Source: a virus. From it: DNA of 52,873 bases. Both the position numbers and the translations under genes were made by a program. A model generated the notes under the pieces. The model was not told where the DNA came from. It was given only the letters and a program-made list of their open reading frames with translations, and searched no databases. Shown one piece after another: positions 4,107 to 31,706 of this stretch; position 1 is the first letter of the stretch; each line of letters begins with the position of its first letter. The stretch is from the IMG/VR virus record IMGVR_UViG_3300030098_001117, positions 1 through 52,873 of that record, one strand, 5' to 3'.

Positions 4107-7100
4107 TTATCCCTCTAGAGTTTCTATTCTAGATTTTAAATCATCTATTATTGTTTGTTGTTCTTGAATTGCTTTTAACAACACAGGTATTGTTTCTGTA
4201 TATTTGATTGAGTAATATTCTTCTTCCTCATCATCTTTTAACTTGGACTTATCTAATACTTGGTCAAACTTACCTACAAAATCTTGTGCTATAAAACCTA
4301 TAGTTTGATGTGAACCTTCAATATCTTTTCTGTTATAAGTTACACATCTTATGTCTTTAATTTTATCTGTGACAGAACCAATATCTTGTATATTTTCTTT
4401 TAATCTTTCATCAGAAAAAGTTCCCCATGATGTGGCATCTGCTGCCAAATTAACACCTGCTGTATTGCCAGATGAATACATTCTTAAAACCCTATTTCCA
4501 GAATTTTGACCAATATAATATGCTGTTCCATCTAACCATTGAAAAGCAGAATATCCACTCCCCTCAATTCTTACATGAGCATCTCCTTCAGAGTTATTAG
4601 CTGCTTCTTTAACGTGAAGTTTTGCAGTAGTACTTGTAGTTCCTATGCCTACGTCTCCTGAATTCGTTATCTGGACTCTTTCTGTATTATTGGTGGCAAA
4701 AACTACAGGTAAATTACTAACAGTACCAAATACCATAGCGTTTTCTGTGTTGCCACTAAACAAGGTACTGCTGTTGTTGTTATCCATACCTGCAATACCT
4801 TCTTGGGTTTTGCCATCAGTATAAAATCTTATGAAGCAATCTTCTTGACCGCTATTATCTGAGTCGGCTTCTAGTCTTAATTCTATGCTTCCTGTATCTT
4901 TAAGATTAAGTTTTGTATCAGGACTCGTAGTTCCTATGCCTACGTTGCCATTAATATAAGCACTACCTCCTAAACGTAAATCCTTGAACCTATAAGAAGG
5001 ATCACCTAAATCGGCATCGTTATCAACTATAGCTCCTGCATTGTCGGTTGGTAATATTCCATTAGCATGAAATCTCAATCCATTATGTCCTGCTGTGCTA
5101 CTATAAATTGTAAGGTCGTTAGCCACATTTGCTAATTGACCAATAGTTGCTATGTCAACTTTGTGATTAAATAATGCTGTTCCAGCGTCTGACATATCAA
5201 GTGTAAGGGCAGTAATATTTGATGAATTATCTACACCTTTGAATACTAAGTCTTGGTCGTTTATTTCTGATTTAATTACAAAATCATTACTACTATTAAA
5301 GAATTGACCTATAGTTGTTCCTGCATCTTTAACATATACATTACCACCATCAGCATCTAAGCTAATATCGCCTGCTACATCTAATGTGAAGTCACCTGAA
5401 GAATTTGCAATACTGCCTGTTACTGTTACACCTGATGATGATGTTGCTAATCTTGCAGTACCATCTTTATATAATGTAGCAGTTCCTGATGCTGCTGATA
5501 TTTGATTTGTACCATCAGACTCTCTAATGTAGATACTATCTCCATCAATTCTTAAATCACCTGTGCCTACTTCCGATATTACTGAATGTGAACCATTATG
5601 TTTTATTACTAAATCATTATCATTACCAATGTTTAATTCAACACTATCTCCCCATTTAGTAGTTTTATTAAATATAGTTTTAGTAGCACTTCCGTCTATA
5701 GTTATGTAAGACGCTGTTCCACCAGAACCATCATCACTCTGGAATATAATGTCTTTGTCATCAGCATTATTAAGTAGTATTAAATCACCAGTATTATTTT
5801 CTATGTATGAATGTGAGCCTGAGTGATAGATTTGTAAATCACTACTGTTACCAAAATCTGCTTTTATACTATCAGTATGTTTGGTATGTTTATCAAACTG
5901 GGTAAAACCTGCACTTCCATCTATAGTTATATACGCTGTATGTCCACCACTTCCATTGTCTGTTCTAAAAATAATATCTGAATCATCTGCGTAATTGGTA
6001 AGATAAAAATGACCAACTTGGTTTTCTATATGTGAAGATGCACTATCATGGTAAAGAGTAAGGTCAGCTAAATCACCTAGTTTTATTTTTTTGCTATCAG
6101 CTAAACTAACATCTGAAGCAAAGGTCACGTTTTCATTGCTATCAAAGGTCATAACCACTGCATCAGCAGAAGATGTTATGCCTACAGCCGTTTCCATGAT
6201 GTCTTTAACGTCTGCCTTTTTAAGTGCATTATCTGTAGCATCAAGAATCATTAAGTAATCACCTGATACTGGTGTTACTGCTGTTAAATTAGATATACCA
6301 CTTGCAGGGAAGGTATTAATGTCCGTTTGGGTAAATGTCATTACCTCTATAGCTGCACTGCTCGCAGGTGCTGCATCAAAGGTTAATGTAGTGCCTGATA
6401 CTGCGTAAGTGGATTTGTTTTGATAAACACCATCTATATAAACCTGTGTATTGTTCTCACTATCAGCAGATACCCCTAATGTGAAGGCAGTTGTGCTTCC
6501 ATTGCCTGTGAAACTGTTTTGCCAAACCCCAGTACCTGCTACTGCTGCAGTAACATGATAGACGACAATTTTCCTGCCATTGGGGGGGGCGGCATCTAGT
6601 GTAAGGGTAGTTCCACTTAACGTGAAATCGTTGGGGTTCATGAACACACCCTCAACAAACACTATAATATTATCTTCACTATCTGGGGCTTGGCTTAATG
6701 TAAATGCTGTTGTTGAACCATTTGCTGTATAAGTATTAACACTAAAGGTAGACGTACCACCACCGCCTATTTCTCCCCAAGAGTCTGTATATCCTTCAAA
6801 CTTACTAAGTGTTGAGTTATACCTAAATAATCCTGCTGCTCCTGAAGGTCTTTGTGCTGTTGTTCCTACTGGTACTTTTACTGCGTCAGTATTTGATATG
6901 TCTAAAGATACGCTTGGTGAGCCAGTTCCGATACCCACTTCACCAGTATCATCTATTGCGAATCTTGTGTATTGAGTACCGCCTTCACTTGCAGCTTCTT
7001 GTATTAAAAATCTTCCATTAGAATCAATACCTTGTTGCCATATTTGCCCTGTTCCTGTTCTGGATAATCTAAAATTAGGAGCAGTTGCATGAGAAACGTG

Positions 7101-12564: not shown

Positions 12565-13782
12565 TTACGCTGATACTTTTTGTTTAACAACTGCTTCAGC
12601 CTGTATGACCTGTCCACCAACCCTTCTTCTAGCAACGTATCTTACGTTACCTGAAGTAGCTTGTGTGAATGGATCTCTGCTTACAGACAAAGCAACCCTG
12701 TCTACAATCATGTATGCTCTTCTGAAGTCACCAAATAGCACAGGGTAAGCATTAGCTGCTACGTCTGGCATATCAGTAGCTTCTACATAAGGATAACCTA
12801 ATATAGTATTAGGAACTCCTGCTTGTAGAGACATACCTGTTTGGAACACATACTGTCCTGCAGTATCTTTAAGTTTTCTTATAGCAGAAAGTGTGCTTCT
12901 GTTAAAAACAAAAGTACCATTTCTTCCATAGTCAGACTTAATGCTGTGAACTAATGTGATCAGACCATCAGCTAGTAATGTACTAGCGTGACCTGAATTA
13001 GATTCACCAACATCGCCATTAGTTAATAAACCTTCAGGCTTACCAACAGCGTTACCACTGACAAATGCAGTTCCTTCAGCCTTCGCAAATTGCTCTGCGA
13101 ATTCTGATTGCATTTCCGCTTCAAGATCAAAGACTGAATCTTCTAAGTTTTGCTCAGAAATATCAACTAAGGCATACAACTCATGTGCAGGCAATTCTTC
13201 TAAAGCCACATTATAACCTGTGGTTTCAGACCTTGTTCCTGCTTCTGCTACCCATGAGGCAGAGAATTGTGCTGAACGCTTAGGCACTTGGATTGATCTT
13301 TGTCCAGTGCTTCTCACTCTTGCTATTGAACGAATAGGCGAGATTTCTGTTACTGTTTTCAGTAACTCTCTCACATACTCAGGTGGTGCAAGATAACCAC
13401 CAGTGCTGTCATTGCTGACAGTTAACGCTTTCTTTTCATCAGGCTCTAATCCTTCTAGACCTTTTCTGATAAATTTAGAGAACGATTCACAAGTGTCGTC
13501 AATTTGCTTAACGTCATAGCCTGAGTTTGGTCTTTTCATGACCGTTTCAAGCTGTTCCATTTGCTCTTTGATTCCGTCTTGTGCAAGTTTGGCTTGGGTC
13601 ACCTCTTGGTTGATTACTTCTAAGCCGTCAAGTTTGCTCTCAATGTTAGCAATCTTGTCGTCTAAAAGCGTATCATGACCCTTGCCTGATTCAAGTGCTT
13701 CTAACTTTTCGTCATTAGCTTTTTTAAATTCTTCAAAAGCTTGACCCAACTCAGAAACAACTTCTTTTATATCATCAGACAT
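12565..13782 (-). CDS. Major capsid protein, HK97 fold
   Basis: 405 residues. Residues 1 to ~110 are a charged coiled coil (delta/scaffold domain) as in HK97 gp5, expected to be removed by the protease encoded just upstream. The mature part begins near 'ALTVSNDSTGGYLAPPEY', a typical HK97-fold start. It continues with 'ISPIRSIARV', 'WVAEAG', 'NLEDSVFDLE' (E-loop to spine helix) and a C-terminal 'RDPFTQATSGNVRYVARRR' region typical of phage capsid family PF05065. Ribosome site GGAG before the ATG. Very confident from domain order and context. Confidence 0.95.
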   Translation of the reverse strand: MSDDIKEVVSELGQAFEEFKKANDEKLEALESGKGHDTLLDDKIANIESKLDGLEVINQEVTQAKLAQDGIKEQMEQLETVMKRPNSGYDVKQIDDTCESFSKFIRKGLEGLEPDEKKALTVSNDSTGGYLAPPEYVRELLKTVTEISPIRSIARVRSTGQRSIQVPKRSAQFSASWVAEAGTRSETTGYNVALEELPAHELYALVDISEQNLEDSVFDLEAEMQSEFAEQFAKAEGTAFVSGNAVGKPEGLLTNGDVGESNSGHASTLLADGLITLVHSIKSDYGRNGTFVFNRSTLSAIRKLKDTAGQYVFQTGMSLQAGVPNTILGYPYVEATDMPDVAANAYPVLFGDFRRAYMIVDRVALSVSRDPFTQATSGNVRYVARRRVGGQVIQAEAVVKQKVSA

Positions 13783-18630: not shown

Positions 18631-18668
18631 GTACATTTTGTGCAAATAGGTGTTTACATTTGTAAACA
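18631..18668. promoter_or_regulatory. Double palindromic operator, copy 1
   Basis: Two palindromes lie between the divergent promoters. GTACATTTTGTGC (18631-18643) is an imperfect GTACA-N3-TGTAC. TGTTTACATTTGTAAACA (18651-18668) is perfect, with 8-bp arms. The second overlaps the plus-strand -35. The same pair occurs before 28688. Likely repressor or activator sites; the cognate protein may be one of the small HTH proteins (25131-25358 or 30311-30517). Confidence 0.65.
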
Positions 18669-18681
18669 TTTCATCTATAAT
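18653..18681 (+). promoter_or_regulatory. Early plus-strand promoter before the amidoligase gene
   Basis: TTTACA (18653-18658), a 17-bp spacer and a perfect TATAAT (18676-18681). The -35 lies inside the 18-bp palindrome, so binding there would block or modulate it. Confidence 0.65.
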
Positions 18682-18720: not shown

Positions 18721-19758
18721 ATGAATAACTTACCAACCATAACAGACAGAACATTTGGAATAGAAATGGAGTTTGAAGGTGCTGATATTAGAGAAGTAGC
18801 CAGAACTCTTAACCAAGTTGTTGAATGTCATTTTGAAGGATACACGCACACAGTATTAGATTACTGGAAAATAGTTACAGATGGTAGCTTGCCTAATTAT
18901 GATACTTGCGGTGAGATTGTTAGTCCTATACTTAAAGGACAAGAAGGAATAGAACAACTTGCTAAAGTATGTGAAGCCTTAGACACAATAGAAGGAATTC
19001 ATGTTACTAGAAGATGTGGATTACACATTCATTTAGGAGTTGAAGATTTAACTGTCGGACAGATACAGACTGTATATGAGAGATACGCAGACTACGAAAG
19101 TCAAATAGACCTAGTAATGCCAAGAAGCAGAAGAAGAAGCAATGCTCATTGGTGCGGAAGTATTACTGGCAGTAAGAATAGAGTTAAAAGAGCAACTACT
19201 AAAAGACGTCTTGCAGGAAGTGCAGGAACTAGATATTTAAAAGTTAATTTAGAATCTTTGGCTAGATACGGAACTATAGAGTTCAGACAACATAGCGGAA
19301 CTTTAAATTTCACAAAGATTGTTAACTGGTTAAGTTTCTTGATGGCTTTTGTTGAAAAGAGTGTTGCTTTAACACCTGCTAACAGAAGAAGAAGTGTCAG
19401 TAAGAACAGACCTTACAATTTAACTAGAACTCTTATAGAGAACAATGGGTATGAAATTGAATACTCTAGACAATACAATGGTTGGATAGTTACAGGTGAT
19501 GGAATTTCTACTGCCCTTGAGGTCTTATTATTTAATTGTGATTTGAATACCTTTTATGATACTGCAAGAGAAAACAGTTTAGATAGGGTTTCATTAGTTG
19601 CATGGTTGGAAAGAAAAGGATTAAACATAACCTTTGTTGATTTTGAAAACATAACAACAGAAGAAGAAACAGTTTCTGAAACGGATAGCGGATGGCTTGA
19701 TGGTGTAGACCTAAAAGTCAAAAGTTACTTTGAAGAAAGGGAAGATGAACTTAACTAA
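18721..19758 (+). CDS. Amidoligase-family enzyme (glutamine synthetase/COOH-NH2 ligase fold)
   Basis: 345 residues. Motifs of the phage/bacterial Amidoligase_2 family (PF12224): 'FGIEMEFEG' (12-20), 'DGSL' with 'CGEIVSPIL' (~54-71), 'RRCGLHIHLGV' (97-107) and 'GTIEFRQHSGTLN' (184-196). These acidic, His and Arg residues bind ATP-Mg and the carboxylate in the glutamine-synthetase-like fold. The family makes amide or peptide bonds between a carboxylate and an amine; the substrate here is unknown. AGGAG precedes the ATG by 8 nt. It pairs with the cyclotransferase gene next door, a known gene partnership. The last ~35 residues are acidic. Confidence 0.85.
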   Translation: MNNLPTITDRTFGIEMEFEGADIREVARTLNQVVECHFEGYTHTVLDYWKIVTDGSLPNYDTCGEIVSPILKGQEGIEQLAKVCEALDTIEGIHVTRRCGLHIHLGVEDLTVGQIQTVYERYADYESQIDLVMPRSRRRSNAHWCGSITGSKNRVKRATTKRRLAGSAGTRYLKVNLESLARYGTIEFRQHSGTLNFTKIVNWLSFLMAFVEKSVALTPANRRRSVSKNRPYNLTRTLIENNGYEIEYSRQYNGWIVTGDGISTALEVLLFNCDLNTFYDTARENSLDRVSLVAWLERKGLNITFVDFENITTEEETVSETDSGWLDGVDLKVKSYFEEREDELN

Positions 19759-19774
19759 ATATAAGGAGAAAAAA

Positions 19775-20269
19775 ATGAAATATAAATCTTACCTGTATGG
19801 TGCTTATGGAAGCAATCTGAATGTGAACCAAATGAAAATGAGGTGTCCTAATGCTGAACCAGTCGGTAGCTTAATGCTGCATGGTTGGGAACTTAAATTC
19901 AGAGGGGTTGCTGACGTAGAAGAAGTAGATAATGCCAAAGTTCCACTCGGTTTGTGGAGAATTACGCAGACCTGTGAATCTGCATTAGATACTTATGAAG
20001 GTTACCCTCACCTTTACACCAAAAAATTATGCACTGTAAAAGGCATAGAAGAAAAATTGGGTAGTGAAGAAGTTATGCTCTATATAATGAACAGCAAGGG
20101 AATTACTCCCCCTAGTATGCCTTATCTAGATTGCATAATAAAAGGCTACAAAGACTTTGGACTTGATGAAGACTATCTCAAGTTTGCATTGAAAGATGCT
20201 TACGCAAGAGAAACATTTGTGGATTCATATACTCCCAAGCCAAAGAGAAACTTTAGATTAATTAAATAA
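19775..20269 (+). CDS. Gamma-glutamylcyclotransferase-like protein (AIG2/GGCT fold)
   Basis: 164 residues from ATG 19775, chosen for the AAGGAG just before it; a longer frame from 19730 lies in the previous gene. 'YGAYGSNLN' (8-16) is the substrate-binding loop and E75 in 'LDTYEGYP' matches the catalytic Glu of the family. The family releases gamma-glutamyl amides as 5-oxoproline or transfers them. It sits 16 bp after the amidoligase, so the two may make and unmake, or trim, the same isopeptide. A terminator follows. Confidence 0.85.
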   Translation: MKYKSYLYGAYGSNLNVNQMKMRCPNAEPVGSLMLHGWELKFRGVADVEEVDNAKVPLGLWRITQTCESALDTYEGYPHLYTKKLCTVKGIEEKLGSEEVMLYIMNSKGITPPSMPYLDCIIKGYKDFGLDEDYLKFALKDAYARETFVDSYTPKPKRNFRLIK

Positions 20270-20424: not shown

Positions 20425-21234
20425 CTAGTTTTTAGATTTACACAATTCTAAAAGCATTTCTGCAGGCTTATCTCCGAGCACCGATTTGACCACATCTGCT
20501 TCGTCTCCACTAAAGACTAGATTCAGTCTATAGAAGTTGGCTGCTTGAACTGCCATGCTTCTTTCTTCTTCTGTTTTTGCTTCTGCTACTTTTCTTTCAA
20601 CTTCTCTTTGAGCATTTAACGCTTCTGGAGTAAGAGCCTTAATCATAGTTCCATCTGCGGTTTTGTGTTCAGTGCCTGTTACACTATCTTCTGATGTGTC
20701 GCTATCAGTAGGAATCCAAGCCGTTCCAAAATCTTCATCAGCCATAGCTTCAGGAGCAGGTATATCTTCAATCATTCTTTGAAGTTCTAAGTCGTCCATC
20801 ATCAGACTGTCTTGTGCCCAATCTAAGGCTCCTAGTTTTTCTAAGTCCCTCAAAACTTCAGATGTTAATTCAATATCTTCAGAACCCCTTGCTCTGTTGT
20901 GCCTTAGAGTAGCTATTCTTGCTTGTTCATAAGTCATCGGAGTAACTACTATAGGTATTTCTGTATACCCTAGAGCCTTTGAACATCTCCATCTGTGTTC
21001 ACCATCTACTATTCTGAACATACTTTCATCATCTTCGTGCTTTACACACACTATAGGCTGAGTAAATCCATCTTCAGTCATTGACCTTTTTAGCAATTCA
21101 AATTCATCATCTGATTGCCTGTTGGGATTATAGGTATTAGGTACAATTTTATCGTGAGTAACGTATTGAATATTTAAAGCCTCTAATACTTTATTCTTCT
21201 TTTCTACTTCTGCCTTACCTTTAGTTCTAGCCAT
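20425..21234 (-). CDS. ParB/sulfiredoxin-fold protein (IbrB-like partner)
   Basis: 269 residues. The N-terminal ~110 residues are a ParB-type nuclease fold: 'IVPNTYNPNRQSDDEFELL', 'DGFTQPIVC', then the signature 'DGEHRWRCSKALGY' (77-90). The rest is charged and lacks an obvious HTH. It is directly downstream of a PAPS-reductase-like gene. That pairing is the one known from the E. coli IbrA/IbrB regulators and is repeated in many phages. The molecular role of such pairs is unclear; partition is unlikely because no ParA is present. Confidence 0.8.
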   Translation of the reverse strand: MARTKGKAEVEKKNKVLEALNIQYVTHDKIVPNTYNPNRQSDDEFELLKRSMTEDGFTQPIVCVKHEDDESMFRIVDGEHRWRCSKALGYTEIPIVVTPMTYEQARIATLRHNRARGSEDIELTSEVLRDLEKLGALDWAQDSLMMDDLELQRMIEDIPAPEAMADEDFGTAWIPTDSDTSEDSVTGTEHKTADGTMIKALTPEALNAQREVERKVAEAKTEEERSMAVQAANFYRLNLVFSGDEADVVKSVLGDKPAEMLLELCKSKN

Positions 21235-21258
21235 GTTTTCTCCTGTTATTTTGATTAT

Positions 21259-22395
21259 TTAAAAAGTTGGTTTTCCGCCCCAAGTACCAGAACCTTCTCT
21301 AAAGTATTCTGGCTCCATATAGGGAAGCGTTCCTTGTTTCAAAGAAAAGGGGTCTCCGTTGTATAGGTTTATTGCTAATTTTTTCCATGAACCATTCGGA
21401 TTTGCTCTTATAGAATTTACCTGCGGAAAATCCATAGCAGAACCGTTTTGTTTGTTGAACTTTCTTAGTTCAGATTCCATAACTTTCACTGCCCTTTCTG
21501 CTATCCAATCTGGTGCTTCTTCTATACATTCTCTTTTAAAACATTCTTCCCACGTTTCTCCTGACTTTCTTATAGGTTGACATGATATTTTTCCGAATTG
21601 AGCAGCGGTCCTAATGCCGTCTAATCTATGACATACTGAATCAAACCATCTTGGAAATGCTTTCTGACCTAATTGTAAATCAGGGATTCCTGCAGTCGTC
21701 ATTGTTAAAGGTGCAATTCTGAGTTTATTTTTTGACCTTCCATGTTTTACCATTACATCGTAAGCATGATTGTAGTCCCATTTAAAATCTCCTATTGCTT
21801 TCCAAATATCTCCATCTGTCCAATCATATATTGGTCTTAGATACTTTACTCCTATTTCATTGCCTTTAGTTATGTGACCTTTGCTTGAAAACAACCCCAT
21901 ACGTCTATTAGGACTCTCTTGTACTCTCAGTCCGATACAAGCCATTAGGTCCTTGCCTTCTTCAACAGGAAACCTTTCTGGTGTAACTAACGCAGTTATA
22001 TTCTGTTCTTCAATCTTATACGCATAAGGTGGTGGCTTCCTTACCCAATCATCAGGGTTAACTGCTTCATCAAAAATCCACCAATAAGGTAAATTTCTAT
22101 TGAATACATTTATAACAGGTTGACCTGCGTAAACATGATGCATATTTACTTCAGGTCTTTGGGCAACTCTATCTAAGTATTCGTATGTATTCGGAAACAA
22201 TATTTCTTCATCACGATGTATAACATTTATTGGAAGCTTACCTGCTGCATCAGCAGCCATTATCGCAAGTTCCATGCAGACCGTGCTGTCTTTGCCTCCG
22301 CTTTGGGAAATTACTATCGTGTGCCCTTGCTCGTAAACTTCTTGGAGTCTATTTAAAGCTGCATCAAATACGTTTAGGTTTAAATTTAGCTTCAT
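21259..22395 (-). CDS. PAPS-reductase-like protein (IbrA/DndC superfamily)
   Basis: 378 residues. A PP-loop 'SQSGGKDST' (30-38) is the ATP-pyrophosphatase motif of the adenine-nucleotide alpha-hydrolase fold. 'IHRDEEILFPNTYEYLDRV' follows, as in PAPS reductases. The C-terminal half has 'YLRPIYDWTDGDIWKAI' and is longer than true CysH, and there is no CysH-type C-terminal cysteine motif. IbrA- or DndC-like enzymes fit better than sulfate assimilation. Its ATG overlaps the methyltransferase stop as ATGA, and the ParB-like gene follows 24 bp later, so the three form one operon. A role in nucleic-acid modification is possible but not shown. Confidence 0.8.
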   Translation of the reverse strand: MKLNLNLNVFDAALNRLQEVYEQGHTIVISQSGGKDSTVCMELAIMAADAAGKLPINVIHRDEEILFPNTYEYLDRVAQRPEVNMHHVYAGQPVINVFNRNLPYWWIFDEAVNPDDWVRKPPPYAYKIEEQNITALVTPERFPVEEGKDLMACIGLRVQESPNRRMGLFSSKGHITKGNEIGVKYLRPIYDWTDGDIWKAIGDFKWDYNHAYDVMVKHGRSKNKLRIAPLTMTTAGIPDLQLGQKAFPRWFDSVCHRLDGIRTAAQFGKISCQPIRKSGETWEECFKRECIEEAPDWIAERAVKVMESELRKFNKQNGSAMDFPQVNSIRANPNGSWKKLAINLYNGDPFSLKQGTLPYMEPEYFREGSGTWGGKPTF

Positions 22396-23085: not shown

Positions 23086-24786
23086 CTAAACTGTCCAGTT
23101 TTCTTGGATTTCTACTGCTCTTTCCTCAAAAACTCTTTTTTTGTGATTATAAAATAATTTGCATTCCCCAATCTGACCATATAATCCCTGCTCTCTAATC
23201 TTTCTTGTGATTATATTTATAGAGTCATCATCAAAGTCTCTGTGTACTGTAATTACAGCATCACTTTGATTGTGCCAATGAGAAGCACCTGCTATGTCAT
23301 AAGCGGTTGGTGGTGCATAACCGCCATCGTTTTCTTTTTGCATCTTGGTAGGATGTGCTACTACCCAAACAGTGCAATCATGAACCCTTGCAAACTTTTT
23401 ACAGTTAGAAATAAAATCCCTTATGTGTTCATCTTCTCTATAGTTGCCCCTTCTTCTAGCATCTACTTCATTGTAAGGGTCTATGACCAACCCATTAATT
23501 CCGAACTTTAATACGCTTTGTTTGGCTATATCTAATATCTTCTCAATGTTGGGTATGTGTTCCCTTGTCTCAATAAAATAAAAATGCTCATTTACCCAAT
23601 CTAGAGCATTGTGCAACTCATCAGTGCTCATTCTTCCTTCTATGCTTTTATCAAAAGGTTTTTCTGAAACTATTTGTGCAAGCCTTCTTATGTGCATACT
23701 GGTAGAGTGCTCTGGACTAAACATAGCAAACTTCCATCCATGCTTTCTAGCTATGTTAACTAGAAACTGGTCTAGAACTGTGCTTTTTCCATGATTAGGT
23801 ATGCCAGTCCAAACATGAAATGTTCCTTTTAACACTTTGTATATCCTATCTATAGAAGGAAACCCTATCTCAATAGGCTTTGTATAATTGCCATTAAATA
23901 AATCTATGACTTGGCTAGTATAATTGTTAACAGTATATAAACCATCCACTGGATAAGGCTTTGCCTTTTCTACTATTTTTTTTAAAGTGGCAGCACCATG
24001 CTTAACCAAAACATCATTAGCATCTTTACAATCTTTAGGAACTTCTACATACCAACACCTGTCTTTTCCAAACCTATGAAGCAACTCCTTATTTAAGTTT
24101 TCTCCTGCCCCATCATTATCTACAAAAATAATTATTTTTTTTGCTTTTAATGGATATGCCTGCAAACAACTAAACCTTTTATCATTTTCTTTGAAGTTTG
24201 CCTGTGCAGGAGCTCCATCAGGTAGAGTTGTTGCATTACGAAACCCTACTTCCCACAAACTTAAAACATCTATTTCACCCTCTACAAATATAACCGTATC
24301 TGAATCTTTTACTGCCTTATAGTTATATAAAGATTTTTTAGCATTAGGAGTTTGCTTAAATTGTTTGTCTACAGTTCTGAACTTTATATTGTCGCATCGG
24401 TTATTGTGTGGATTGTAGGGCATAGCTATCCACTTACTATCTTTAGTATGAACACAATGGTATTCGTATGTCTCTCTGCTTATTGAACGAGAAATAAAAT
24501 AGTCATCAAGAAACTTTGTGTGCTTTGTGTTTTCTATAGTTATTGGTTCTGCAGCCTTTGGCTTATTAACACTTTTAGTTATTGGTGTTGTTTTATCGTA
24601 TACAGAGCCAGTGTCTTCACAGTGATGACAAAACCATACAGCACTATCTATATCAATAGTTACAGAAAGAGGTCTATCTGAAGCTTTGTGTGGTGGTTGA
24701 CACTTTGGACATTTTGTTTTGTGTGTTCCTTCTGTGTAATTTTTTAATCTTATATTGTTTTCTAGTAGCTTATCCTGCAAGTGCAT
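23086..24786 (-). CDS. Replicative primase-helicase (T7 gp4-like)
   Basis: 566 residues. An N-terminal zinc ribbon has C26-x2-C29 and C53-x2-C56. TOPRIM primase motifs are E169 in 'FVEGEIDVLS' and 'FVDNDGAGEN' (220-229). A DnaB-type helicase domain has Walker A 'GIPNHGKST' (327-335), Walker B in 'GLVIDPYNEVD', and 'AHPTK' plus 'SHWHNQSDAV' downstream. It primes and unwinds at the phage replication fork. It overlaps the upstream HTH gene by 17 bp. No phage DNA polymerase is visible in this window, so host polymerase may be used or the gene lies elsewhere. Confidence 0.93.
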   Translation of the reverse strand: MHLQDKLLENNIRLKNYTEGTHKTKCPKCQPPHKASDRPLSVTIDIDSAVWFCHHCEDTGSVYDKTTPITKSVNKPKAAEPITIENTKHTKFLDDYFISRSISRETYEYHCVHTKDSKWIAMPYNPHNNRCDNIKFRTVDKQFKQTPNAKKSLYNYKAVKDSDTVIFVEGEIDVLSLWEVGFRNATTLPDGAPAQANFKENDKRFSCLQAYPLKAKKIIIFVDNDGAGENLNKELLHRFGKDRCWYVEVPKDCKDANDVLVKHGAATLKKIVEKAKPYPVDGLYTVNNYTSQVIDLFNGNYTKPIEIGFPSIDRIYKVLKGTFHVWTGIPNHGKSTVLDQFLVNIARKHGWKFAMFSPEHSTSMHIRRLAQIVSEKPFDKSIEGRMSTDELHNALDWVNEHFYFIETREHIPNIEKILDIAKQSVLKFGINGLVIDPYNEVDARRRGNYREDEHIRDFISNCKKFARVHDCTVWVVAHPTKMQKENDGGYAPPTAYDIAGASHWHNQSDAVITVHRDFDDDSINIITRKIREQGLYGQIGECKLFYNHKKRVFEERAVEIQENWTV

Positions 24787-25114
24787 TTTTACCCCCTTTC
24801 TTAGTTTTTAGTTTGTCTTTAGTATAGGCGGTAGTGGGTGTCCTAAGAGTAAGGACATGGGCGTCCACACTCAAAAAATACCTGTTTGAAGTACCAGAAC
24901 GCATTTCCTTCCTTATTAAATTATTTTGCTCTAACCAAGCTAAACACCTTCTTACTTGTCTATCTGAAATACCGCAAATACTAGCTATATGCTTTTCACT
25001 AGGATAGCAAGAGTGCTCTTGGTCTGCGTAGTTTGATAGAATAAAAAGGACTAATTTAGTTGAAGGGGTATTACATTTTTGGCGTTTACACCAACCTATT
25101 GCTTCTATAGACAT
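24770..25114 (-). CDS. Helix-turn-helix protein, replication-initiator-like
   Basis: 114 residues. The region at ~17-70, 'STKLVLFILSNYADQEH' then 'HIASICGISDRQVRRCLAWLE', is a winged HTH of the HTH_36 type, which often forms the N-terminus of phage replication organiser proteins. The C-terminal ~40 residues are basic and unstructured. It directly precedes and overlaps the primase-helicase gene, which suggests origin recognition or helicase loading. Regulator is the alternative. Confidence 0.75.
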   Translation of the reverse strand: MSIEAIGWCKRQKCNTPSTKLVLFILSNYADQEHSCYPSEKHIASICGISDRQVRRCLAWLEQNNLIRKEMRSGTSNRYFLSVDAHVLTLRTPTTAYTKDKLKTKKGGKNALAG

Positions 25115-25130
25115 AGTAACCCATTATGTA

Positions 25131-25358
25131 CTAGATAGATTTATCTGGCAAGACATTAAAATCATAAAAGTCATTTGCCGTTACTAGACCCCCTGTAACT
25201 TCATAAATAATTTGCATTTCTTCTTTTCTGGGAATTCTTTTATCCTGACACCATTTAGAAATTGCGTGTTTAGAAAATGTACCACCAAGCCTTTTAGACT
25301 CATCTAAAAATTTATCTTGGGTAATTTTATGTTTACTCAAATAATCAGATAATTTCAT
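25131..25358 (-). CDS. Small Cro/CI-like HTH regulator
   Basis: 75 residues. 'LSDYLSKHKITQDKFLDESK' then 'TFSKHAISKWCQDKRIPRKEEMQII' is a Cro/XRE-type HTH. It is divergent from the exonuclease/ERF operon across a 92-bp gap, a Cro-like position at an early control region. No full-length CI-type repressor with a dimerisation or cleavage domain and no integrase are present, so it is more likely a switch in a lytic programme than a prophage repressor. Confidence 0.75.
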   Translation of the reverse strand: MKLSDYLSKHKITQDKFLDESKRLGGTFSKHAISKWCQDKRIPRKEEMQIIYEVTGGLVTANDFYDFNVLPDKSI

Positions 25359-25383
25359 GATGGCTAGAATACATCATTTGTTC

Positions 25384-25412
25384 TTGTAAATCCACCCATA
25401 TTGTACTAAAAT
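25384..25412 (+). promoter_or_regulatory. Early promoter of the recombination operon
   Basis: TTGTAA (25384-25389), 17 bp, TAAAAT (25407-25412), about 40 bp before the exonuclease ATG. An imperfect palindrome, GTACTAAAATAGCAC (25403-25417), covers the -10. Confidence 0.5.
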
Positions 25413-26241: not shown

Positions 26242-26940
26242 ATGGATAAATTGATAAGTGCAATAGTTGAAGCACAAAAAAAAATCAACGATGCAAATAG
26301 GTCTGCAATAAATGAGTTCTTTAAAAACAAAAGAAACACATCAGGTAGTCCTTACGCAACATTAGAAGATGTTATACAGGCGGTAAAAGAGCCTTTACTA
26401 GAGCAAGGTGTTTTGTATCAACAAATATCTGAGCAAGTAGAGGGTGGAGTTTGTATAGAGACTGTGTTCATAGGACATGGCTCTAGGCTAGAAACAGGAA
26501 AAATATTTGTTCCTGCTGATAAGCAGACACCACACGGCTACGGCTCTGCACTGACGTATGCTCGCAGGTACTCATTATCTTTAGCTTGCGGTATTGGTGC
26601 TGCTGATGATGATGCTAATAAAGCAGAAGAAACAGTCAAAAAGGTCGCAAAAGTAAAGCCTTTACCTAAGACTGCATCTAAGCATGAACCTGCCATGAAA
26701 GAAGATGCTAAATATCATATAGTTAATTCAGATGGTAACATGATTGCATCAGCAGATGACGAAGGAAAGTTCTTAGAACTATGCAGAAGTTTTTTAAAGA
26801 ATCCTGAAAAAGCTGCTTGCCAAGAAATATATAAGTCAAACGAGAATACCATCAAGAAGGCTTTAATAGCTTCTTCTAATGACACTAAGAAAGCATTAGA
26901 AAATCTTATATCTTTATATGAAAACAAGGGAGAAAAATAA
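26242..26940 (+). CDS. erf: ERF-family single-strand annealing recombinase
   Basis: 232 residues. ERF family (PF04404) signatures: 'YATLEDVIQAVKEPLLEQG' (~37-55) and 'GYGSALTYARRYSLSLACGI' (~95-115), followed by 'GAADDDAN'. The C-terminal ~90 residues are a lysine-rich linker and a helical tail specific to this protein. It anneals complementary single strands in phage recombination. Partner exonuclease is immediately upstream. Ribosome site GAGG. Confidence 0.92.
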   Translation: MDKLISAIVEAQKKINDANRSAINEFFKNKRNTSGSPYATLEDVIQAVKEPLLEQGVLYQQISEQVEGGVCIETVFIGHGSRLETGKIFVPADKQTPHGYGSALTYARRYSLSLACGIGAADDDANKAEETVKKVAKVKPLPKTASKHEPAMKEDAKYHIVNSDGNMIASADDEGKFLELCRSFLKNPEKAACQEIYKSNENTIKKALIASSNDTKKALENLISLYENKGEK

Positions 26941-26941
26941 A

Positions 26942-27274
26942 ATGAATCTAAATAAAATAGATGCAGAAATAGTGCACATGAAACCCAAAAGCAAAGCAAC
27001 GCACAAACAAGACCTTAACTGGTGCGTATGGCGATGTATGTCAGATGGACGTTGGTGGACTTTTTGGGAATTACAAGACGCTATACAAAGAAACACAGGA
27101 AAGTTCTATGGTGAGCCAACTATAAGTGCTGCCATACGGAATATGCGTAAGTATGAATGTCGTGTAAGATTTGGATTGCCATTAGATATGGGTGTGGAAA
27201 TAATTACCAAGAAGCGTATATCTGGGGGCAAAGGTTATAAATATAGAATGTTAGAGGTATCTAATTATGGATAA
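26942..27274 (+). CDS. Small winged-helix-like early protein
   Basis: 110 residues from ATG 26942, chosen for the AGGGAG shortly before it and because the longer frame lies in erf. 'DGRWWTFWELQDAIQRNTGKF' and 'EPTISAAIRNMRKYE' look like the helices of a winged helix, and 'ISGGKGYKYRM' like its wing. It likely binds DNA. It lies between recombination genes. No specific family recognised. Confidence 0.75.
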   Translation: MNLNKIDAEIVHMKPKSKATHKQDLNWCVWRCMSDGRWWTFWELQDAIQRNTGKFYGEPTISAAIRNMRKYECRVRFGLPLDMGVEIITKKRISGGKGYKYRMLEVSNYG

Positions 27275-28599: not shown

Positions 28600-28631
28600 G
28601 TACATTTTGTACTTGTTTATTTATGTAAACA
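28600..28631. promoter_or_regulatory. Double palindromic operator, copy 2
   Basis: A perfect GTACATTTTGTAC (28600-28612) lies next to TGTTTATTTATGTAAACA (28614-28631), which keeps the outer TGTTTA-N6-TAAACA of copy 1. Both elements are in the same order and orientation relative to the gene as at 18631-18668, but closer together by 6 bp. Confidence 0.65.
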
Positions 28632-28641
28632 TTGTTATACT
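28613..28641 (+). promoter_or_regulatory. Early promoter of the small-gene operon
   Basis: TTGTTT (28613-28618), 17 bp, TATACT (28636-28641). It overlaps the second palindrome and drives the gene cluster from 28688 onward. Confidence 0.6.
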
Positions 28642-28687: not shown

Positions 28688-28969
28688 ATGATTAGCATAA
28701 ATTTAAACTGTTTTGATTGTAATGAAATGTCTACAGATGAAATCGTTAATGCAGTGATACCTCAATTAGTTACTGCTATTAAAGAAAAAGCGTATGTAAA
28801 TGGATATAAAGCCACTGATGCAGAAGCTTTAGGTCTTGTAGTAAGTAAGTTTTGCAAATGGGATAGAGGAGACATCCTTAACGTAGCTTGTGAAGCTTTA
28901 GAAGATTCAAATTTCCATGATGACGTTGCAACTATTGAAAGCAAATTATTCATGAAGGAGCAATCATAA
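28688..28969 (+). CDS. Early protein of unknown function
   Basis: 93 residues behind CAGGAG. Mostly helical, four Cys, no membrane segment ('INLNCFDCNEMSTDEIV', 'KFCKWDRGDILNVACEAL'). First gene after the second double-operator promoter. Not recognised; early host-takeover or anti-defence function is possible by position only. Confidence 0.7.
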   Translation: MISINLNCFDCNEMSTDEIVNAVIPQLVTAIKEKAYVNGYKATDAEALGLVVSKFCKWDRGDILNVACEALEDSNFHDDVATIESKLFMKEQS

Positions 28970-29365: not shown

Positions 29366-30311
29366 TACAGTCTTACAGAAACTAATATATATGTACCAAG
29401 ACGTACATTATCTAAATGAAAGAGTTGGTATGCCACCGCATTTTAATCTAATGGTTGAACCTATACCTGAAAATGTAAGGCAAGAGTATTTCAAGGCTAT
29501 GAGCCAAGAGATACAACAGGCAGCAAAGTTCTACATAGACCAAAAAGATGAACACAACATATTAAGCGAACAGGAAGTAGAAAAAATTATTCCTGCTATG
29601 CCTGTATATGCACCCTACAAACTTTTATTCATACAGATAGAAACACCTGATGCAGTAATGAATGTGCTAGTGCGTGAATTGGACTATACTGCTGAGGAAA
29701 CAGACGAACCTATTTTCTTGATGTCTATGCTTATGTATGACAGAGAAAATGGATATTTTGTGCATGACTATTCTCAGTATGCGTTTACATTTCATAAAGG
29801 GGAAGTGTTCATTGAAGGGTTAGGCGAAAGTGGTAAAACACTTACGGCAGAGGATTATACATATTGGGTTCAAGGGCATTTTGTAGATTACATAATCACT
29901 GACCCTGATGAACAAGGGCAATATACAAATGTATCACTAAATATTTGGACTAAAATGGTATCAAGTGCGTTTATCACGTTGAACATTATGTTGAATTATC
30001 CTGAGATTACTCAGTCAAAAGATGTGCAAGGTAGACCAAACACAACCGATGGTCACACGAGGTTAAAAAAGTTTACGCATACTGTCTTGGCAGAGAGACC
30101 TAGCTATGAGCATAAAACTTTGAAGCTAGATATGTATGGAAACGATGAAGCAGGTGGTGGTTGTGGAAACAGTAGGTCAAGTGGTACTGCGTTCCATAGT
30201 GTGAGAAAACATATTAGAAAACTGGCTAATGGCAAAACAACTTTTGTGAAGGCACACTTCAGGGGTTCTAAAGATGTTGGTATCATAGATAAAGATTACG
30301 AGGTGAAATAA
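29358..30311 (+). CDS. 317-residue early protein of unknown function
   Basis: It overlaps the previous gene by 8 bp and the HTH gene by 1 bp. The N-terminal ~200 residues are mixed alpha/beta ('APYKLLFIQIETPDAVMNVL', 'FVDYIITDPDEQGQY'). The C-terminal ~60 residues are basic and include 'GTAFHSVRKHIRKLANGK' followed by 'FVKAHFRGSKDVG', a pattern I associate with uncharacterised phage proteins. No catalytic motif is recognisable. It is the largest unknown early gene. Confidence 0.8.
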   Translation: MNNTVLQKLIYMYQDVHYLNERVGMPPHFNLMVEPIPENVRQEYFKAMSQEIQQAAKFYIDQKDEHNILSEQEVEKIIPAMPVYAPYKLLFIQIETPDAVMNVLVRELDYTAEETDEPIFLMSMLMYDRENGYFVHDYSQYAFTFHKGEVFIEGLGESGKTLTAEDYTYWVQGHFVDYIITDPDEQGQYTNVSLNIWTKMVSSAFITLNIMLNYPEITQSKDVQGRPNTTDGHTRLKKFTHTVLAERPSYEHKTLKLDMYGNDEAGGGCGNSRSSGTAFHSVRKHIRKLANGKTTFVKAHFRGSKDVGIIDKDYEVK

Positions 30312-30517
30312 TGACAGGTGAAGAACTAAAAGAATTAAGAAAAGATACTAATACAACTCAATCTGAAATTGCAGATTATTTGGGTTACTACACAAATGGT
30401 ATACCAAATAGGTCAGTAATTTCTAGATGGGAAAAGGGCAGAACACCCATAAACCCTCGTATCAGTATGTTGCTAGCACAATTTTTTAAAAAAATAGAAG
30501 AAAAGGAGACAGTTTAG
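30311..30517 (+). CDS. Small XRE-type HTH protein
   Basis: 68 residues. 'ELRKDTNTTQSEIADYLGYY' and 'RSVISRWEKGRTPINPRI' form a classic XRE HTH. It is coupled to the previous gene by TAATG. A candidate reader of the palindromic operators. Confidence 0.8.
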   Translation: MTGEELKELRKDTNTTQSEIADYLGYYTNGIPNRSVISRWEKGRTPINPRISMLLAQFFKKIEEKETV

Positions 30518-30999: not shown

Positions 31000-31154
31000 G
31001 AAAAGCAACACAAAATCATTTATTACGTCACGAACCTAAATGTGGTTCTAGGGGAAAGAAAACAAGTATAGGCAGAGGAAATGTTGGAACATCCACCATG
31101 AACAAACACAAAAAGCGTATGCGTAAAGCTAAATATAGGGGACAAGGCAAATGA
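30996..31154 (+). CDS. 52-residue very basic protein
   Basis: An ORF from ATG 30996 to TGA 31154, joined to both neighbours by ATGA overlaps (30996-30999 and 31151-31154), which argues strongly that it is translated. Rich in Lys/Arg/Gly: 'CGSRGKKTSIGRGN', 'MNKHKKRMRKAKYRGQG'. It resembles small basic proteins seen in other tailed phages; nucleic-acid binding is likely from charge. Confidence 0.7.
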   Translation: MRKATQNHLLRHEPKCGSRGKKTSIGRGNVGTSTMNKHKKRMRKAKYRGQGK

Positions 31155-31408
31155 AAGACATTGAAGATTTTAAAGATGAATGGAGAAATGAGGTAAAGTC
31201 TGACGTAACATTTAAAGAAATTAATTTACCTAAAGATAAGTATTTGCAAGCAAAAAAAGATACAAGAATAACTGCTAGAGCCAATCAAGAATATCAAGAT
31301 AAATTAAAAGAAATGTCTAAAACTTATAATCTAGCAGAAGGAGTTTTACTTTCTTATATGATTGATTATTTTTATGAACACTTAATGGAGAAAACAAATG
31401 AAAGATAA
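31151..31408 (+). CDS. Possible ribbon-helix-helix protein
   Basis: 85 residues. The C-terminal half has a short strand 'TRITARANQ' then two helices ('EYQDKLKEMSKTY' and 'AEGVLLSYMIDYFYEHL'), the layout of a ribbon-helix-helix DNA-binding fold. Lys-rich N-terminus. Coupled by ATGA to the basic protein before it. Confidence 0.6.
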   Translation: MKDIEDFKDEWRNEVKSDVTFKEINLPKDKYLQAKKDTRITARANQEYQDKLKEMSKTYNLAEGVLLSYMIDYFYEHLMEKTNER

Positions 31409-31556: not shown

Positions 31557-31706
31557 ATGACTAAATTTAGAGATATTCTATTTTATACAGTAATAGGTTT
31601 ATTGTTTGGGTGTTTTGTATTGGCATTAATGCTAATTTGTTTGCCTTATTATTTGGGCAGGGAACTATGGCATAGATTAGAAGATTGGCAAATGAATAGA
31701 AATTAA
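31557..31706 (+). CDS. 49-residue single-pass membrane protein
   Basis: It begins immediately after the previous stop. One strong hydrophobic segment (~9-33, 'FYTVIGLLFGCFVLALMLIC') sits between basic ends. Possible early membrane effector (superinfection exclusion or anti-holin); not recognised. Confidence 0.6.
   Translation: MTKFRDILFYTVIGLLFGCFVLALMLICLPYYLGRELWHRLEDWQMNRN

Follow-up and report, generated by a model that had tools for sequence, protein, structure and literature searches.

In phage lambda the early genes follow the order cro-O-P, and Cro acts mainly as a repressor. In PY54, a temperate telomere phage with a prophage repressor, Cro uses a single palindromic operator of 16 bp, cI and cro are transcribed as leaderless mRNA, and related Cro operators differ at peripheral bases (PMC4488713). 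Mesorhizobium phage vB_MseS-P1 (PP232116; hereafter P1) is a temperate, inducible prophage with a LexA-like repressor, an integrase and CII, and the words "operator" and "palindrom" are absent from the main-text passages of its description (PMC11409702). The window, by which we mean the whole 52,873-base stretch analysed (IMG/VR record IMGVR_UViG_3300030098_001117; 36.7% GC), is a siphophage-like genome with its structural genes on the minus strand. As in the lambda cro-O-P order, a Cro-like gene of 75 codons (HTH75, 25131..25358, minus strand) is followed leftward by a replication initiation O-like gene (24770..25114, minus; phrog_391, E 2.6e-17) and, as the third gene of the operon, a primase/helicase (23086..24786, minus), with a predicted operator at its own promoter. 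Unlike lambda, the divergent neighbour of HTH75 is a PD-(D/E)XK nuclease gene and not cI, there is a single operator per promoter where lambda OR has three in tandem, the operator is reused at promoters ca. 6.8 kb to the left and 3.2 kb to the right, and no integrase was found among the 40 window proteins scanned (the portal-position ORF and small ORFs lay outside the PHROGs scan). Since a divergent repressor gene is absent and no integrase occurs in those 40 proteins, the region is not a lambda-type switch. HTH75 resembles PY54 Cro in having a single palindromic operator and leaderless mRNA, both predicted here, with an operator of 13 bp instead of 16 bp (PMC4488713). A nucleotide search with two stretches of the window against named phages returned no relatives, and literature searches (mostly of titles and abstract openings, with few subscription papers) returned no description of the elements reported below. 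A ParB-like protein is encoded beside a phosphoadenosine phosphosulfate reductase-like protein at 20425-22395.

Two palindromes stand as a pair at two places on the plus strand, exactly where the earlier note had located them. We call the first element A (13 bp, 4-5-4 layout) and the second element B (18 bp, TGTTTA-N6-TAAACA). At site 1 these are GTACATTTTGTGC (18631-18643) and TGTTTACATTTGTAAACA (18651-18668), separated by 7 bp, and at site 2 GTACATTTTGTAC (28600-28612) and TGTTTATTTATGTAAACA (28614-28631), separated by 1 bp. A perfect GTACA-N3-TGTAC had been reported at site 1; the 13-mer there is a single base short of a perfect palindrome. Site 1 heads an Amidoligase_2 gene (18721..19758, plus; Pfam E 2.3e-31) and then a gamma-glutamyl cyclotransferase-like gene (19730..20269, plus), the true start of which may be internal, whilst site 2 heads an early cluster whose first gene (28688..28969, plus) is of unassigned function. 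The predicted -35 of the amidoligase promoter, TTTACA (18653..18658, plus), lies within the left half of B and is followed after 17 bp by a predicted -10, TATAAT (18676..18681, plus), 45 bp after the start of A; at site 2, B takes up the stretch immediately upstream of a predicted extended -10, TGTTATACT (TG-T-TATACT, with TATACT at 28636..28641, plus, and TTGTTT 17 bp upstream), 36 bp after the start of A. The pair thus stands at two predicted plus-strand promoters with differing spacing, as had been claimed. The amidoligase and cyclotransferase-like pair (18721-20269) is divergent from the terminase genes; among 22 HTH75/HTH68 or related records selected, 17 have the amidoligase. In 300 dinucleotide shuffles of the window, TGTTTA-N6-TAAACA reached a mean of 0.007 (2 observed; 0 of 300 shuffles with two), and the A+B pair with a gap of up to 12, present twice in the window, was found in none of the 300, so that neither B nor the pair meets the objection of being common elsewhere. 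Element A by itself is non-significant within the window (GTAC-N5-GTRC: 2 observed, mean 0.85, at least 2 in 55 of 300 shuffles) and needs comparative evidence, and B at up to 2 mismatches is not rare (14 observed vs 9.0 expected, equalled in 6 of 100 shuffles).

Conservation was assessed in 21 loci encoding relatives of the window amidoligase, L003 being the twin of the window. An exact B lies within 120 bp before the amidoligase gene in 20 of the 21, the exception being L023 (43% identity), and is present in 11 of the 12 distinct 100-bp upstream sequences. Of the 22 whole records, 20 contain exact B, each with between one and three copies (G021 and G022 gave none), whereas the reversed control pattern was found in none. 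A second copy stands ca. 10 kb from the amidoligase copy, before the early cluster, in the records reaching that region: it is exact in G001, G002, G003, G004, G006, G008, G013 and G016, carries one mismatch in G015 and G018, which have in addition an exact copy over the -10/start, is found only over the -10/start in G014, and is decayed at site 2 of G020. Both copies of B have element A beside them; close relatives show it as GTACA-N3-TGTRC or something near it, others as GTACANNATGGGT, GCACAAAAAGGGC or similar sequences. A search of relatives for the pair, proposed in the earlier note with absence of conservation as the counter-outcome, therefore finds it conserved, and the same A+B pair at both promoters, kept in relatives, is in keeping with the suggested link between the amidoligase operon and the early cluster. 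The fixed order of the palindromes holds generally and breaks down in G014, G015 and G018, which carry a downstream copy of B covering the -10 and the start. Start to start, A and B are 13-14, 19-20 or 30 bp apart across relatives; A occurs without a full B at the HTH75 promoter, after the HTH75 stop codon and at 31637 of G016, and B without A at the third site of G003, G004 and G006. Because each occurs without the other (a full copy in the case of B) and their mutual spacing varies, the two elements seem to act independently, which fits the original suggestion of two regulators or a bipartite site. The G016 promoter at 31637 (GTACAAAAAGGGT-TGTTTA..TATAAT) lies upstream of a further ribosome-binding-like site, and in G014 (a reversed record) positions 13223-13270 and 19553-19600, 6.3 kb apart, share 48 identical promoter bases ending TGTTTATTATGTTAAACA. 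A B-like sequence in the HTH75 coding start (25330, one mismatch) was set aside as chance, being confined to the window and its twin G001 among 23 records.

Scanning the window and six relatives with a position matrix of A gave two further strong copies, both at HTH75: GTACAATATGGGT at its promoter (25394..25406, minus; 48 bp before the ATG) and GTACATAATGGGT over its stop codon, just 5' of the repO-like ATG (25119..25131, minus). HTH75 was found in 10 of 10 tested relatives. Among the best 80 of 87 HTH75 loci there are 24 distinct class-A rows, several of them near-relatives, and in 22 of these A flanks the gene on both sides (matrix score at least 7), the upstream copy starting 45-48 bp before the ATG in 21 of the 22 rows (41 in L146) and the second lying just 3' of the stop. 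L130 has A only after the stop, and L132 has none upstream and a weak match (7.8) after the stop. This ties A strongly to the product of 25131-25358, one of two HTH proteins the earlier note had named. The stop-codon copy ends 4 bases before the repO-like ATG (1-5 in other relatives examined), and TTGCCA-17-CATAAT in the window could put it over a -10. DNA looping between the two A copies flanking HTH75 was rejected, as their distances (263-285 bp) are without helical phase, and the sigma-54, FNR, CRP and LexA consensus sequences fit neither A nor B. A de novo motif search upstream of HTH75, in 16, 10 and 19 hand-chosen loci of subclasses A, B and C, respectively, returned for each a 4-5-4 palindromic 13-mer with its own half-sites (A RNAC..GGGT; B TTCA..GGAA; C TACC/AACT..GGTT/GGTA) at 15.8, 14.1 and 13.4 bits per sequence, compared with shuffled maxima of 7.0, 8.1 and 7.0; subclasses B and C are without the subclass-A element A. 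The motifs of these other subclasses, TTCA-N5-GGAA directly after TATAA and TACC/AACT-N5-GGTT/GGTA, upstream of HTH75 homologues in L144-L159 and L160-L197, would thus be two putative operator codes besides that of subclass A.

As a held-out test, a symmetrised A matrix trained on the present group of phages was run over the whole P1 genome (40.8 kb, 63% GC), in which gp12 is a homologue of HTH75 (35% identity). The best match, GTCCATTTTGTGC at 5599, scored 15.9 (next non-overlapping match 7.9), differs from the site 1 element A of the window by one letter and sits in the 97 bp that separate gp12 from gp11, the LexA-like repressor gene, against a TTGACG -35 and 36 bp before a predicted -10. 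Random P1 pieces of the same size reached this score in 13 of 5000 draws, about the number expected to contain the site itself. By its location, this match assigns HTH75 the position that cro has in an immunity region of the lambda kind, with A in its operator. The other named-phage relative of HTH75, MT835519, has no A-like element upstream by eye, and a host search with the HTH75 alignment in genome contigs yielded 36 pattern matches, of which 0 were confirmed as relatives. The AlphaFold2 model of HTH75 (pLDDT 91.3) is a small single-domain helical HTH fold of five helices, for which the N-terminal domain of TP901-1 CI is the best VIA-align match (Z 9.0, rmsd 1.8, 62 aligned); XRE/CI-type HTH proteins make up most of the rows, middling Z values being common for helical models. 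Foldseek gave no match at E ≤0.001 for the HTH75 or HTH68 models, Pfam gave none for the window HTH75, the P22_Cro profile matched in one of seven family members only (E 0.014) and phrog_35 (repressor) matched HTH75 at E 1.6e-4. From the flanking copies and the P1 match, element A is likely the operator of HTH75.

The distance from A to the predicted -10 falls into groups about one helical turn apart with no values between, in 27 hand-chosen promoters: 34-36 bp in 14 early, early2 and cro promoters, 44-47 bp in six amidoligase promoters and 54-57 bp in seven, the groups containing related phages and the independent shifts being few. The distance from A to B holds no single phase, unlike that from A to the -10. 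Boxes were predicted with approximate E. coli frequencies; near-duplicates and amidoligase promoters with the 14-bp form of B (G022, G024, G030, G031, G037, G039, G043, G045, G055, G056) were excluded, as were G052 (A weak or unclear by eye), G053 (ca. 57 by eye), G057 and G058. G048 and its relative G050 differ by one turn (45 vs 54); in G050 two TATAAT tie (54 and 37) and 54 was taken, aligned with that of G048. In G002 the scorer chose TATAAC at 47, with TGC-GAATAT at 44 equally plausible, and in G054 it chose 57, with 54-55 possible. At the HTH75 promoter itself, in 23 loci with an A score of at least 7 (L130 and L132 excluded), the best -10 starts 34-35 bp after A in 21 and 29 bp after it in L146 and L148; in the window this is a putative TATTCT (25366..25371, minus). 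With A 45-48 bp before the ATG, the start would fall about on the ATG, which predicts a leaderless mRNA like that of lambda cI from PRM. By eye, -35 matches at this promoter are poor in most rows, which fits activation too. On the assumption that transcription starts ca. 7 bp after the -10, the centre of A falls near -41, -51 or -61, where activators in contact with RNA polymerase are known to bind. The first is near where lambda CI at OR2 activates PRM, and the three centres in one helical phase resemble CRP-type class I/II promoters, although HTH75 is of a different protein family and activation here is a proposal. This phasing suggests contact with RNA polymerase at A.

Element B overlaps the -35/spacer in relatives and the -10/start in G014, G015 and G018, positions like those of a repressor operator. 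In the window it heads the early operon behind site 2, in which lies the gene for HTH68 (30311..30517, plus), an XRE/HTH_3 protein of 68 aa (Pfam HTH_3, 34.3 bits vs a cut-off of 23) found in 10 of 10 tested relatives. Wider relatives carry the forms GTTTG-N6-CAAAC, GTTTG-N6-TAAAC and a 14-bp GTTRYA-N2-TRYAAC, several with a second copy over the -10; in G045 the exact 14-bp form lies directly before HTH68, 55 bp upstream of the gene, and the HTH68 ATG of G039 is immediately preceded by a degenerate version of this B-like palindrome. These cases tie B, with moderate strength, to the second HTH protein named in the earlier note (30311-30517). Stretches of 4 kb upstream of distinct HTH68 loci contained 44 matches to the 16-bp pattern with at most 1 mismatch (11.2 in shuffles) and 18 to the 14-bp pattern (9.4 in shuffles), the shuffles being single-base and some of the matches looking coding. 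GTTTA-N6-TAAAC occurs in only 10 of 46 HTH68/HTH75 records (many of them fragments), not always at promoters, and HTH68 with the same recognition helix is also found in records without it. The HTH68 column that best separates the operator forms is residue 27 (mutual information 0.52 vs 0.36 for the next), placed by the model in the hairpin between helix 2 and the recognition helix. An aromatic residue stands there in 15 of the 21 rows with the 16-bp form and in 0 of the 9 with the 14-bp form (Fisher p 7e-4 when the tree is ignored), the rule being broken by L068, L076, L093, L070, L074 and L114; on the tree the co-variation is not significant, with only 2 supported independent pairs. This comparison used hand-set operator classes in 30 of the distinct HTH68 rows, excluding L059 as a near-duplicate and rows without a clear promoter palindrome (including L060, L065, L069, L071, L073, L075, L077, L080, L082, L084, L086, L092, L103, L112 and L116-L118). 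The co-variation is suggestive of a link between HTH68 and B but short of proof, and we favour B as the predicted operator of HTH68.

The positions of the elements, their conservation, the association of A with an HTH75 subclass and the promoter geometry are observations; how far they reflect two phage regulators has to be weighed against other readings. Chance palindromes in AT-rich DNA would be compatible with the non-significance of A alone in the window, yet the pair in 0 of 300 shuffles and B in 11 of 12 distinct sequences make this explanation negligible. The pair might instead be the signature of a host regulator or of sigma-specific promoters and not of phage control, as the -35 hexamer makes up part of B's left half and site 2 has an extended -10; we regard this as very improbable, since the right half of B and the whole of A are conserved outside the hexamers, and A tracks the phage HTH75 subclass even in P1, a GC-rich phage of another host. 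More room is left for another protein at B, be it a host regulator, the wHTH-like 118-aa product of 26918-27274 or the 85-aa product of 31151-31408, ribbon-helix-helix-like with a weak PHROG match (E 0.0021), both labels being by eye: the B-HTH68 link is moderate, many HTH68 records are without B and 26918-27274 has tblastn matches in 11 relatives besides the twin of the window. We nevertheless think it unlikely, given the B-type palindromes that immediately precede HTH68 in G045 and, in degenerate form, in G039, a tblastn match for the ribbon-helix-helix-like protein only in the twin among 62 HTH68 loci, and the lack of B before the operon of the 26918 gene in the window.

The closest competitor concerns the sign of regulation at A. 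HTH75 might be a pure repressor, with A only blocking polymerase, alone or together with HTH68, and the phasing reflecting repressor contacts or history; the predicted operators of subclass B over the -10/start and, by eye, of subclass C in the spacer are at repression positions, so that subclass A may have a repressor role too, P1 has a weak A-like GCACAGAATGGGG (5.5) in the spacer of the same promoter as its strong match, and at both site 2 and the HTH75 promoter A is directly adjacent to the -35. The amidoligase copies of A, however, are displaced upstream by a further one or two turns, too far for a single dimer to cover the -35, and it is the A-to--10 distance that is in phase and not the A-to-B distance, which makes a pure repressor possible but the less probable reading; activation by HTH75 at the early and amidoligase promoters has about an even chance.

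We thus come down, with some confidence, on each site being a composite control region for two phage-encoded regulators, HTH75 at A and HTH68 at B, where binding, the sign of regulation and the timing are what we infer from sequence. A dimer of HTH75 would bind A (13 bp, half-sites roughly RYMC, spacing 5), the HTH75 gene itself having copies of A both at the promoter and past the stop codon, and, lying on the polymerase face in the promoters measured, would most likely activate or touch polymerase at the promoters of the early cluster and of the amidoligase. HTH68, a product of the early operon under site 2, would most likely bind B as a repressor and then shut both promoters, giving delayed negative feedback. 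The pattern suggests that two small phage proteins time early genes from paired sites.

The finding is real and conserved, and the best explanation is that two phage regulators each have an operator which is used again at promoters far apart, the unusual part being the helically phased use of a Cro-family operator. It offers a readable regulatory code of protein, operator and promoters for a large uncultivated phage group whose regulation we did not find described in our literature searches, places the amidoligase/gamma-glutamyl cyclotransferase operon under the same predicted control as the early cluster, and gives a concrete case where components of a lysogeny switch seem to have outlasted the switch. 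More tentatively, a Cro-family protein may have been turned into an activator of early genes after its phage lineage had lost the lysogeny switch, with an XRE protein ending the pulse. If so, a Cro-family activator would drive two distant promoters from helically phased sites, and the XRE product of one promoter would close both via overlapping operators, producing a self-limiting early-gene pulse that would be common to a wide group of amidoligase-carrying phages.
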